A DNA stretch of 34,604 bases from positions 1-34,604 of the forward strand of contig JACPRI010000151.1 in NCBI GenBank assembly GCA_016190065.1, written 5' to 3'. The translations under genes and the position numbers were made by a program. Source of the DNA: Verrucomicrobiota bacterium (GTDB lineage Bacteria; Verrucomicrobiota; Verrucomicrobiia; Limisphaerales; SIBE01). Below the pieces are notes generated by a model, which worked only from the letters and a program-made list of their open reading frames with translations, was not told the origin of the DNA and did not search any database. Positions 10,413 to 29,891 of the stretch are shown piece by piece; within the stretch, counting starts at the first letter, position 1; the number at the start of each line of letters is the position of its first letter.

Positions 10413-10422
10413 AAATCCTGCA

Positions 10423-10457
10423 GCGTTAAAGCGTTAAAGCGTTAAATGAGTTAAATG
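10423..10457. repeat. Octamer array GCGTTAAA, left arm
   Basis: Three 8-bp units GCGTTAAA and a diverged fourth ending GAGTTAAAT. A matching array in reverse complement (GTTTAAC-type units) occurs at 10547-10578, so the two arms could pair across about 90 bases. Both lie in the intergenic region before the MFS/spermidine-synthase gene. Confidence 0.75.
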
Positions 10458-10521: not shown

Positions 10522-10546
10522 GTGGGTGCGATCAAATTTTTTCACC

Positions 10547-10578
10547 GATTTAACGATTTAACCTTTTAACGTTTTAAC
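10547..10578. repeat. Octamer array GATTTAAC/CTTTTAAC, right arm
   Basis: Four 8-bp units GATTTAAC, GATTTAAC, CTTTTAAC and GTTTTAAC end only nine bases before the ATG of the MFS/spermidine-synthase gene. They are in inverted orientation to the array at 10423-10457. The array occupies the place where a ribosome-binding site would be expected, and no Shine-Dalgarno sequence is visible. Confidence 0.75.
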
Positions 10579-10586
10579 GACTTCAA

Positions 10587-26000: not shown

Positions 26001-29000
26001 TTATCGGCCAGCTTTCTCCCGCTTCACAATTTCTTCGAGCGAGGGGGCTTGGAAGGCATAAAGCGCCCCGCTTGTATCCGAGACCAAGAGATTATTTCCA
26101 TCAGCCGAAAAAATGGCTCGGCGGTCCAGCCCTCCGCAGTCTTTGAGCATTCCAATTTCCTGATGAGACAGCGTATCGACAAGCCACACGGCCCTGCCCC
26201 CGCTGGCGACGGCGACCGTACGGCCATCCGGAGAGAACGCGGGTTTGTTCAGCGCCAGTAGATTTGGATCGGCTTTGAACACTTCAACCACACCTTCCTC
26301 TGTAAGGGTGAATAGCTGAAACACACCGTGAGATCCAGCCAGAGCCAAAAGTTTTTCGTCACCTGAAAAATCGGCAAGAGCGGATGTAACCTTTCCGAGT
26401 TCAATTCGTTTGCGGCGATTCGATGTCCGATCCCAAAACACACAAGTTCGCGATCCAGCTATGGGTTTGACGAGGACATAGCGTCCGGAGGGTGAGAAGG
26501 CCTCCGGCAAAAGGACGAAGTCCTCTTTCAGCGTCGCCAGGATACGGCAGTCTGGAAGTTGATAGATGGTGAGGCTTTGGGGCGTATCGCGGACGAGCAA
26601 GGTGTTGCCATCGGCCGAGAAGAAAGCGAGGTCACCCTTCACAGTTGCGTGTTTCCTTCCAGTCTTCAAATTCAGGAGAGTGACAGTATGGTCCTCAACC
26701 AGAGATCCGAGCTCCGCTTTTTGGTTAAAGGAAGTGAGTCCTTGCGGCCAACCATCGGCGTTGAGCCGGCGCAATGAGTTAGCTTCCCAGTAGTGCATCG
26801 CGCCGGCGCCGTCACGGGCCATGAAAAGAGTATGGTCCGATGATCGCCCCAAAGACCTGACATTTTCCTGCAAACGGAGGGGGCCTTTGGCTTTCACAGG
26901 TGCAGTGAGGTCCCAGAGCTTGACGAGGTTGTCCTTGCCTCCGGTGGCAATCGTCCTTCCGTCCGAGGAACTGGCCAGGCACCAGATTTCGTTTAGGTGA
27001 CCATTGAATTGTGCTTTAGAGCTCCAGGTCTTGACGTCCCAAATCTTGACCGATTGATCTGCGCTGGCAGTGAAGAGGCGCTCGCCATCATGGGAAAAAG
27101 CAGCCCCGCCGACCCATCGGGTGTGGCCCACCAGATCTTTTGCCATTTGACCCGATGAGACATTCCAGACCCGGAGAAAGGAGCTCTCGCTCAGAGAAAC
27201 TCCCGCGCCGACGAGCCAGTCGCCGGACGGCGAGAAGGCCAGTTCAAAAATGGCCCCGGCACCGCGGGCATCGAGTCGAGCTGAGTTCGAGAGATTCGTC
27301 GTTCCAGAGACTTCCCAAAGCAGAAGCTCATCATGGCTGCCGCTGCTCGCCAGGCGCCGTCCGTTTGGGGAAAACGCGAAGGCCGAAATCCCTTTGGCAT
27401 GAAGTTTTCGCGAGGCCAGATTCGTATGCGTCTGGAAATCGCGGAAGTGAAGCTCGCCGCGTGCGTCGCCAATCAGGAGCAGTTCTCCCTTCGGTGTAAA
27501 CCGGACACATCCAGCACCAGCGGTTCTCCATCGTTGAAAGACTCCGGCTGTGACTCTATCCACCGTCCGCTCGTTATGGATATCCCACACCTCGGCGCTT
27601 CCACCACCGCCAATCGCCACGAATCTGTTATTGGGCGATATATCCACAGAGTTAATTTGGTCGCCTGCGCTCTGTATCAAAAGGACGCCACGCGGTGCCC
27701 CTGGTTCCCCGTCGTGGCGCATCTGTCTGAATATCTCGAAAGTCGGCGCCTTTCGAATGATCAACTTGCCTTCGTGGTCTCCCGAAATCAGGAGCTGACC
27801 ATCCTGTGAAAAGCGAATGGTCTCGACGATATCGCTGTGTCCCTCCAAGGTGCGCGCCTCATCACCGCGAGTTTGGCCCCAGAGAAAACGCCAGGCCCAG
27901 TCCCGGAGATCCGGATCACTGGACCGATGCCGATCAAGGAGCTCGCGTGCGTGGCCGACTTGGTTTTCTTCAAGCGCTTTGAAGGTCAGATTCATATCCG
28001 ATGCGTAGAGACGCCGCTGGGCCAAAGCTTTTTCCCGGGCCTCGGCTTGGGCGCTGGCCGACGCGCGGTTCGCCTGCTTAAACGCAAACAGAGCCAGCCC
28101 GGATACGCTGAGGATAATCAGGATCGCGGCAAGCGCGGTGCGGATCATTCCGCGTCGGTAAGCAGCACGTTCCAGCGCTGCTTGTTCTTCCTGCTGCCTC
28201 TCCAGGACTTCCCGGCGATCAAATAAGGCCCGCAGTTGCTGGGCCAATTGTCCAGCTCCTGCAAAACGGTCCTGCGGATTACCGGCAAAACAGTGCTTGA
28301 GGTCGTCGCGCAGCAATGGATCGGCAACCTCATCAGCCCAATCCGTCGTTAGCGGCCGCGTCAAATCGCCGACCAGCAATTGCCAGAGCACCACGCCGAG
28401 CGAATAAATGTCCGAACGGATTGACGCGGGCTTCCCGGCCAAAAGCTCTGGCGCCATGTACAATTGAGTGCCCGTGTGCGACGAGGAAGAATCCGACATC
28501 ATCGTTTGCGTAAACCCTGCCCGCGTGATGCCAGCCAGGGCCTCCTGCGAGACCACTTGCCCGATGCCGAAGTCGGTGAGCTTGGCTTGTATGTCGTAGC
28601 CGCCGACGTCAGGAAGCTCACTTGTTTGTCCGAGCGTGGAGCGTGAAGCGTGGAGCGTCGGTGACTCCGTTGAATGTTGAACGTTGAGCGTTGAGCGTTG
28701 GACGTTAGCGTCCGATCTCGCGTGAGCCTTGTGACCTCGGCTGCTGCTTTCGACGAGGATGTTGGTTGGCTTGATGTCGCGATGAATGACTCCAGCATCA
28801 TGCGCCGCTTGCAATCCCTCCGCCGCTTGCGCCACAATTTCCAGCCGCGTCTCCAGCGGCACGCTCGCCACGCCTCCACGCTCCTCGCTCCACGTCCGCA
28901 GATCGCTCCCTTCCACGTAATCCATCTCCACGTAGAACGGCGGTTCGTTGAAATAGACCTCCAGCAAGCGAACGATGTTCGGATGGTCGCCCACGCGCTC

Positions 29001-29891
29001 CTTGAGCAAGCGGAAGAGCGTCATCTCCCGTTTCAAGAACCGGACGCGGTCGGCGCGGAAACAAAACTTGAACACGCGCCGTTCCTTCATGGTTTGGTGC
29101 CGGCCGAGCCACACTTCGCCAAATCCGCCTTCGCCCAGCTTCCGTTCCAGGACCCACTCGGTGTTTGGCACTCGCTGGCCCAAGGCCGGCCTCCAACCGA
29201 GCACTTGCTCGTCTCCGGAGGCCACCTGCCGCTGCGCTTTCTCGGTGCCGGCCGGCGCGCCACCCGTGTCTTGTCCCACTTCGCGCACTTCGCAAATCTC
29301 CACCGGTTCGTCCAGCCCCTTGAGCAAGTACAGCCCATGGTTCAGCCATTCCAGCGCTCCGATCCCTTCGATGTCCTCGCCTTTCAAAACCTGCCGGGCG
29401 CTGTCGAACACCGATCGCGTCATGAGGACCTGGCCCGCCCGAGCCAGCGACATCACCCGGGCGCAAATGTCGATCTGGATGCCGTACAGGTCGGTCGGGC
29501 GTGCGCTGGTCTGGCCCTCTTTGATGACGACTTCGCCCACATGAATGCCAATCCGATCCTGGACGGTGACGCCGCTCTCACGGCTCAAATCTCTCAGGCG
29601 GGCCTGAACCAGAAGCGCGAATTGGGCCGCGTCCGAAGGCTTTGCAAACACGATGAGAAACGAATCGCCAGCGGTCTCGATCTCCCGGGCGTCCGTGAAG
29701 CGCGCTCGCGTGGCCCGGACAAGTTGATGATGTTTCTCGAAAAACGCCGCGCCGGCGCGGTCACCCAAGCGCTGTTTCAGCGCCGTCGATTCGACGATGT
29801 CGGTAAAGAGGAGCGTGACCAGGCCAGTCCGATGCTGGCGCTGAAACTCTTCAAGCTGGACGCGCTGACCCGTGTCGCTCGGCGGGTTCAT
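26001..29891 (-). CDS. Class III cyclase – Ser/Thr kinase – WD40 fusion protein
   Basis: A 1296-residue fusion. Residues about 22-205 are a class III adenylate/guanylate cyclase domain (VTLLFTDIVESTALKQRLG, IETAGDSFLIVF, IGIHVGEVV, DLYGIQIDICARVMSLARAGQVL). Residues about 243-560 are a Ser/Thr kinase: glycine loop GEGGFGEVW, Lys in VFKFCF, HRDIKPTNIL at 370-379, DFG at 440-442 and an APE-like APELLAGK. A membrane helix follows (about 579-603), then a WD40 propeller from about 677 to the C-terminus. The cyclase and kinase are thus cytoplasmic and the propeller probably periplasmic, unless the helix is not membrane-spanning. Between HRD and DFG lie about 50 extra residues encoded by heptamer repeats. 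The kinase looks intact otherwise. Output and ligand are unknown. Confidence 0.92.
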   Translation of the reverse strand: MNPPSDTGQRVQLEEFQRQHRTGLVTLLFTDIVESTALKQRLGDRAGAAFFEKHHQLVRATRARFTDAREIETAGDSFLIVFAKPSDAAQFALLVQARLRDLSRESGVTVQDRIGIHVGEVVIKEGQTSARPTDLYGIQIDICARVMSLARAGQVLMTRSVFDSARQVLKGEDIEGIGALEWLNHGLYLLKGLDEPVEICEVREVGQDTGGAPAGTEKAQRQVASGDEQVLGWRPALGQRVPNTEWVLERKLGEGGFGEVWLGRHQTMKERRVFKFCFRADRVRFLKREMTLFRLLKERVGDHPNIVRLLEVYFNEPPFYVEMDYVEGSDLRTWSEERGGVASVPLETRLEIVAQAAEGLQAAHDAGVIHRDIKPTNILVESSSRGHKAHARSDANVQRSTLNVQHSTESPTLHASRSTLGQTSELPDVGGYDIQAKLTDFGIGQVVSQEALAGITRAGFTQTMMSDSSSSHTGTQLYMAPELLAGKPASIRSDIYSLGVVLWQLLVGDLTRPLTTDWADEVADPLLRDDLKHCFAGNPQDRFAGAGQLAQQLRALFDRREVLERQQEEQAALERAAYRRGMIRTALAAILIILSVSGLALFAFKQANRASASAQAEAREKALAQRRLYASDMNLTFKALEENQVGHARELLDRHRSSDPDLRDWAWRFLWGQTRGDEARTLEGHSDIVETIRFSQDGQLLISGDHEGKLIIRKAPTFEIFRQMRHDGEPGAPRGVLLIQSAGDQINSVDISPNNRFVAIGGGGSAEVWDIHNERTVDRVTAGVFQRWRTAGAGCVRFTPKGELLLIGDARGELHFRDFQTHTNLASRKLHAKGISAFAFSPNGRRLASSGSHDELLLWEVSGTTNLSNSARLDARGAGAIFELAFSPSGDWLVGAGVSLSESSFLRVWNVSSGQMAKDLVGHTRWVGGAAFSHDGERLFTASADQSVKIWDVKTWSSKAQFNGHLNEIWCLASSSDGRTIATGGKDNLVKLWDLTAPVKAKGPLRLQENVRSLGRSSDHTLFMARDGAGAMHYWEANSLRRLNADGWPQGLTSFNQKAELGSLVEDHTVTLLNLKTGRKHATVKGDLAFFSADGNTLLVRDTPQSLTIYQLPDCRILATLKEDFVLLPEAFSPSGRYVLVKPIAGSRTCVFWDRTSNRRKRIELGKVTSALADFSGDEKLLALAGSHGVFQLFTLTEEGVVEVFKADPNLLALNKPAFSPDGRTVAVASGGRAVWLVDTLSHQEIGMLKDCGGLDRRAIFSADGNNLLVSDTSGALYAFQAPSLEEIVKREKAGR
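28632..28709. repeat. In-frame heptamer arrays within the kinase domain
   Basis: Two tandem arrays of 7-bp units. The first, 28632-28659, is GAGCGTG, GAGCGTG, AAGCGTG and GAGCGTC. The second, 28669-28709, is GTTGAAT, GTTGAAC, GTTGAGC, GTTGAGC, GTTGGAC and GTTAGCG. They are translated on the minus strand as NVQRSTLNVQHSTE and SPTLHASRSTLGQTS, inside the kinase between the catalytic loop and DFG. One unit more or less would frameshift the gene. Confidence 0.9.

Follow-up and report, generated by a model that had tools for sequence, protein, structure and literature searches.

The gene considered here lies in a 34,604-nucleotide stretch of DNA from a Verrucomicrobiota bacterium (assembly GCA_016190065.1, contig JACPRI010000151.1; hereafter the window, meaning the whole of this stretch) and joins a cyclase, a kinase and a WD40 propeller in one polypeptide. 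Between the HRD and DFG motifs of its kinase domain it carries arrays of 7-bp units, which the initial annotation took to be a possible phase-variable switch. Does this locus turn a signaling protein on and off, or did the repeat DNA enter the kinase for some other reason?

A Genuine Excess Between HRD and DFG

The host gene and its domains are laid out as follows:

26001 to 29891, minus strand: host gene, class III cyclase, Ser/Thr kinase, probable membrane helix and WD40 propeller, 1296 aa with no internal stop
residues 20 to 165: Guanylate_cyc domain, Pfam match
28362 to 29150, minus strand (residues 248 to 510): kinase domain with the insert inside it, Pfam Pkinase PF00069
from residue ~674: WD40 propeller, Pfam match
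28776 to 28784, minus strand (residues 370 to 372): HRD codons, from the translation
28566 to 28574, minus strand (residues 440 to 442): DFG codons, from the translation

Translation confirmed that HRD and DFG stand 70 residues apart, as first noted, and the homologous loops confirmed that this exceeds the usual spacing. HRD start to DFG start measures 210 nt in the window gene, compared with 69 to 87 nt in insert-free homologues and 60 nt in the second kinase domain present in several of the homologous proteins; the excess of ~44 codons is therefore real. The PknB and StkP structures match the kinase domain on either side of it in a PDB comparison. A pseudogene is ruled out, since the full 1296-aa frame is open and retains the HRD, DFG and APE motifs.

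Architecture and Dispersal of the Inserted Element

The insert is a composite palindrome with the following parts:

28596 to 28747, no strand assigned: composite palindromic element, a GTAG-tagged REP-like arm, two heptamer arrays and an inverted arm, forming a 152-bp inverted repeat
28596 to 28619, plus strand: REP-like arm GTAGCCGCCGACGTCAGGAAGCTC, member of the arm family
28724 to 28747, minus strand: inverted REP-like arm (GAGCCTTGTGACCTCGGCTGCTGC on the plus strand), complementary to the first arm at 18 of 24 positions
28632 to 28658, plus strand: heptamer array 1, unit GAGCGTG, 3.9 copies (TRF), copies dispersed in the genome
28668 to 28706, plus strand: heptamer array 2, unit CGTTGAA (GTTGARY family), 5.6 copies (TRF)

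The arm family follows the pattern GTAGCMGCCGA...GGCTGCTAC, and the heptamer arrays fill the loop of the 152-bp inverted repeat. The outer tag is GTAG at 28596, and the opposite end reads GCAG on the gene strand, a single change that stays within the degenerate form GYRG. The whole excess had been ascribed to the two arrays; they do lie between HRD and DFG but encode only about half of it, and the remainder consists of the two arms plus short spacers. The units are imperfect copies, as the initial annotation remarked, the longest exact run being two (GTTGAGC twice). The insert has a hairpin z of -3.8, versus -0.5 in the gene flanks, with the two arms pairing as inverted repeats. GTAG REP arms are 20 to 40 bp stem-loops by themselves, and such a hairpin within the arm is visible in E2-type inserts (L199).

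A 234-kb sample of this genome contains at least 7 arrays of period 7, compared with 0 in 234 kb of Markov-shuffled DNA of the same composition and 2 in a set of loci totaling 647 kb, most of which come from other phyla. The shuffles, the other-phyla loci and the reversed-pattern controls rule out a chance repeat. With the exception of AATCATA, the heptamer families tested are stop-free in all three frames in at least one orientation, and the gene strand is the stop-free orientation of array 2. Because 7 is coprime to 3, an array in its stop-free orientation is open in all three frames and can sit in a gene; a change in unit number is then silent across the array but shifts the frame downstream.

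Genome searches with the insert segment revealed both heptamers and the flanking parts dispersed over many contigs. The arm family has 30 copies in this genome (G000), versus 0 matches for a reversed control pattern. Of 20 related genomes, 15 contain it, and a single congener has 238 copies (controls 0). The heptamer family GTKGARY gives 61 matches in this genome (G000), compared with 1 for the control, and is carried by 100 of the 313 genomes of the order. This repeat census combines genome searches with a 234-kb sample, the genome being a 68% complete MAG in 472 contigs. Eleven two-armed copies, including that of the window, could be read fully; most contain a heptamer array in the loop, although the heptamers of the others differ (TTTCGGA, GCGGAGT, TTTCTGA). 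The arrays are thus what this dispersed element, laid out as a GTAG-tagged REP dimer, ordinarily carries.

Copies also lie in frame inside other genes of the same genome. Loci L013, L006, L019, L003, L259 and L281 hold peptide inserts encoded by these same repeat elements in priA, metG, metH, queG, dnaE2 and an RND efflux gene. The element falls inside the matched Pfam domain in metG, metH, queG, the RND pump and another kinase; dnaE2 carries it at its beginning, and priA contains it as well. This in-gene count leaves out an FMN-dehydrogenase match (L034) and the ORFs of L260, L261, L272, L278 and L279 as chance matches or unconfirmed ORFs.

Other repeats were seen along the way. A second heptamer-armed palindrome (AGGCGAT ... 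inverted) lies at 745 to 840 of the window, near the 5' end of the minus-strand ORF at 1 to 846, and is 74% identical to the kinase-loop insert of L201. Octamer arrays of AGCGTTAA and CGATTTAA occupy 10422 to 10455 and 10546 to 10580, with ~90 bp between them, and another CGATTTAA array is found at L160:9468. A 23-bp direct repeat, GCAGAATGMAAATCTGCGATACG, occurs in two copies each at L150:19728-19781 and L157:18522-18567 and is possibly another dispersed family.

One Turn of the Kinase Takes Up Many Inserts

The insert site is the β7-β8 turn of the kinase. An AlphaFold2 model of the domain, built from six sequences and of low overall confidence (mean pLDDT 53), was used for placing the loop only; it predicts coil at model residues 144 to 192, with pLDDT 25 to 43 over most of the insert, between modeled strands 138 to 143 and 193 to 198 that correspond in this prediction to β7 and β8.

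We read ~55 homologous loops, taken from Verrucomicrobia genomes that for the most part belong to the same order. Among 40 alignable kinases, the length of the HRD-DFG turn has a standard deviation of 14.0 with 23 distinct values, whereas the next site has 3.9 and 4. The loop inserts are mostly hairpins (mean z -2.8, versus -0.09 in the flanks of the same genes) and fall into several unrelated families: the E1 family comprises the window, L204, L210, L213 and L217; a GTCCCGCC..GGCGG family comprises L197, L199 and L246; and the remaining inserts include GACAGGC (L220), GCGGAGT heptamers (L200), GGCGATA heptamers (L201) and others. A single supported clade of 11 members, the window gene among them, contains ~7 insert types when the absence of an insert (L043, L207) is counted, and in this genome the loop is readable in four family members, each of which carries a repeat-derived insert, with more than one type among them. 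Related older inserts have lost the hairpin and kept the frame (z +0.5 in L202, -0.2 in L228, -0.4 in L219 and -0.8 in L225), which fits insertion followed by decay rather than a selected hairpin.

The second most length-variable site of the kinase domain coincides with a heptamer-like stretch at 28868 to 28894 (GTGGAGC family, 2 mismatches in 21 bp) that is conserved kinase coding sequence; compared with its homologues, the window gene has no insertion there.

Most Loops Keep the Frame and Three Lose It by Whole Heptamers

The reading frame is preserved in 35 of 38 insert-bearing loops (p = 5e-14 against an expectation of 1/3), indicating selection on the downstream half in the majority of these genes. 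All frame losses fall in heptamer-bearing loops, 3 of 16 versus 0 of 39 among the others (Fisher p = 0.02). The expectation that gain or loss of a unit shifts the frame is borne out between homologues, with differences of 7, 7 and 14 bp separating L216, L218 and L223 from their nearest in-frame relatives. L223 is 14 bp shorter than its sister paralogue L221, exactly two CAACCCT units, in a pair that shares 90% identity and has no gap in the 1120 nt upstream; between L206 and either L216 or L218 the net difference is 7 bp. In L216 and L223 no defect other than the loop frameshift was found. L218 likewise has no second frameshift, and its single called stop lies within this one; however, L218 is changed in the conserved NIL motif too, as in a decaying gene. 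Frameshifts and stops elsewhere in other members of the family indicate that gene decay is common. For single MAGs, an assembly error may lie behind such losses; on the other hand, the arrays are under 45 bp, shorter than typical reads, and the 14 bp that separate L221 from L223 are a clean difference within sequence that has no other gap.

Weighing the Explanations

If the locus were a contingency locus, heptamer slippage would reversibly toggle the full-length protein, the off state being the cyclase with the kinase N-lobe. A slipped window copy is computed to end near residue 423 or 463, frame has been lost by whole heptamers in three relatives, two of which (L216, L223) show no other defect, and out-of-frame loops are confined to those that bear heptamers. 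Yet the majority of loops are in frame, many hold non-heptamer elements or no insert, and the window array is itself in frame and degenerate, its exact runs reaching two copies at most instead of forming a long perfect tract. Housekeeping genes (priA, metG) carry these repeats too, and for them an off state would be intolerable. The relatives support slippage as a mutation and not as a switch, because other family members decay in other ways too. A phase switch at this locus is thus possible but unlikely. The claim of a dedicated switch also fares poorly on the annotation's own terms, which set a non-repeat insert in homologues against it: homologous loops often hold quite different, non-heptamer elements, and in the window gene the arrays form the loop of a REP-like element that is dispersed in the genome. 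A broader version, in which REP-heptamer elements land in one kinase loop throughout the cyclase-kinase-WD40 paralogues of Verrucomicrobia and unit changes there serve the family as an evolvable on/off switch, parting the cyclase from the half that holds kinase and sensor, seems improbable to us.

Selection could instead act on the hairpin, in mRNA or DNA (translational pausing, RNA processing, recombination), so that unrelated sequences converge on it. Strong hairpins of unrelated sequence at a single site would be expected from this, but the older related inserts that remain in frame without a hairpin (L202, L228, L219, L225) and the several insert-free members make it distinctly improbable. 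A conserved structured RNA is rejected, given that same loss of the hairpin and the lack of any Rfam match to the insert. Another possibility is that the peptide is a selected regulatory loop of the kinase for which repeat DNA was merely raw material. Related inserts have been retained in frame for long in several lineages (L197/L199/L202 and L211/L215/L219/L225); however, sequence, length and composition differ wholly between close relatives of one clade, and we regard a functional loop as very improbable.

The explanation we favor, and consider probable, is a dispersed GTAG-tagged REP-dimer element with a heptamer-filled loop that is tolerated in a permissive loop of the kinase. The insert would be one copy of this two-armed element, which would have entered the β7-β8 turn, a permissive surface loop that has received repeat elements on many occasions in this gene family. 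In the stop-free orientation in which the gene reads them, the heptamers are open in all three frames and can hence be carried there. Selection would retain only those insert lengths with which the parts that follow (C-lobe, membrane helix, WD40 propeller) stay in frame, the encoded peptide being most likely a disordered, dispensable spacer. Now and then a gain or loss of units would shift the downstream frame and leave a cyclase with half a kinase, as seen in three relatives. The element, its dispersal, the hotspot, the retention of frame and its loss by whole heptamers are read from the sequences themselves; from these we infer the tolerance of the loop and the absence of a dedicated function.

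Several points weigh against tolerated insertion of this element, the incompleteness of the MAG among them. The element appears mobile, perhaps moved by RAYT-like tyrosine transposases, but no mobilizing enzyme is tied to it: the two Y1 tyrosine transposases of the assembly are sub-cut-off matches (the better reaches 72.7 bits, where the NCBIfam RAYT model has its cut-off at 80), and no arms lie beside either locus. Moreover, plain tolerance poorly explains why one loop is taken so often; the elements may also prefer this target or exchange with one another.

Comparison with Known Systems

In this free-living lineage the composite REP-heptamer element is found in many genes and has entered a single kinase loop repeatedly. 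Its insertions, decayed insertions and frame losses form a natural series for studying the origin of protein segments from repeat DNA, and the same series bears on loop preference and on 7-bp arrays as possible switches in environmental bacteria.

Rickettsia palindromic elements are palindromic repeats, unrelated in sequence, that stay in frame inside functional genes, and the present elements are likewise palindromic, dispersed and in frame in functional genes. The likeness is one of working and not a claim of kinship by sequence; here the phylum is another one, the element has inner heptamer arrays, and a single loop is a hotspot for many element types. To our knowledge, it is chiefly Rickettsia, with a handful of REP-rich genomes, that has provided examples of repeat elements in frame within working proteins.

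GTAG-tagged REPs have been reported inside ORFs, including DnaE2 genes, and many occur in Opitutus terrae (Verrucomicrobia) (PMC3733652), so this kind of element is known. Shared with those REPs and their dimers are the outer GTAG, the inverted dimer layout, high copy number, presence in some ORFs including DnaE2, and occurrence in Verrucomicrobia; the differences are that the arms here enclose heptamer arrays and that one loop of a paralogous kinase family is repeatedly occupied. The text of that report does not mention heptamers and gives a common insertion site only for recB of Xanthomonas (PMC3733652). Dispersed heptamer SSRs, also as inverted pairs, have been described as GGGAATC in Xanthomonas, GGGGAYT in Nostoc and heptanucleotides in Calothrix, and the published G-rich units form G-quadruplexes (PMC4692102). 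The arrays described here are similarly dispersed 7-bp tandem units, often in inverted pairs; however, their units lack such G-runs and are placed between REP arms. With phase-variable SSRs they share a coding unit not divisible by 3, whose change in number shifts the frame in relatives, but the tract is short, degenerate and mostly kept in frame, and the frame change is known between homologues only. REP- and RPE-type elements within genes are thus familiar; the enclosure of heptamers by REP arms and the one-loop hotspot are new here.
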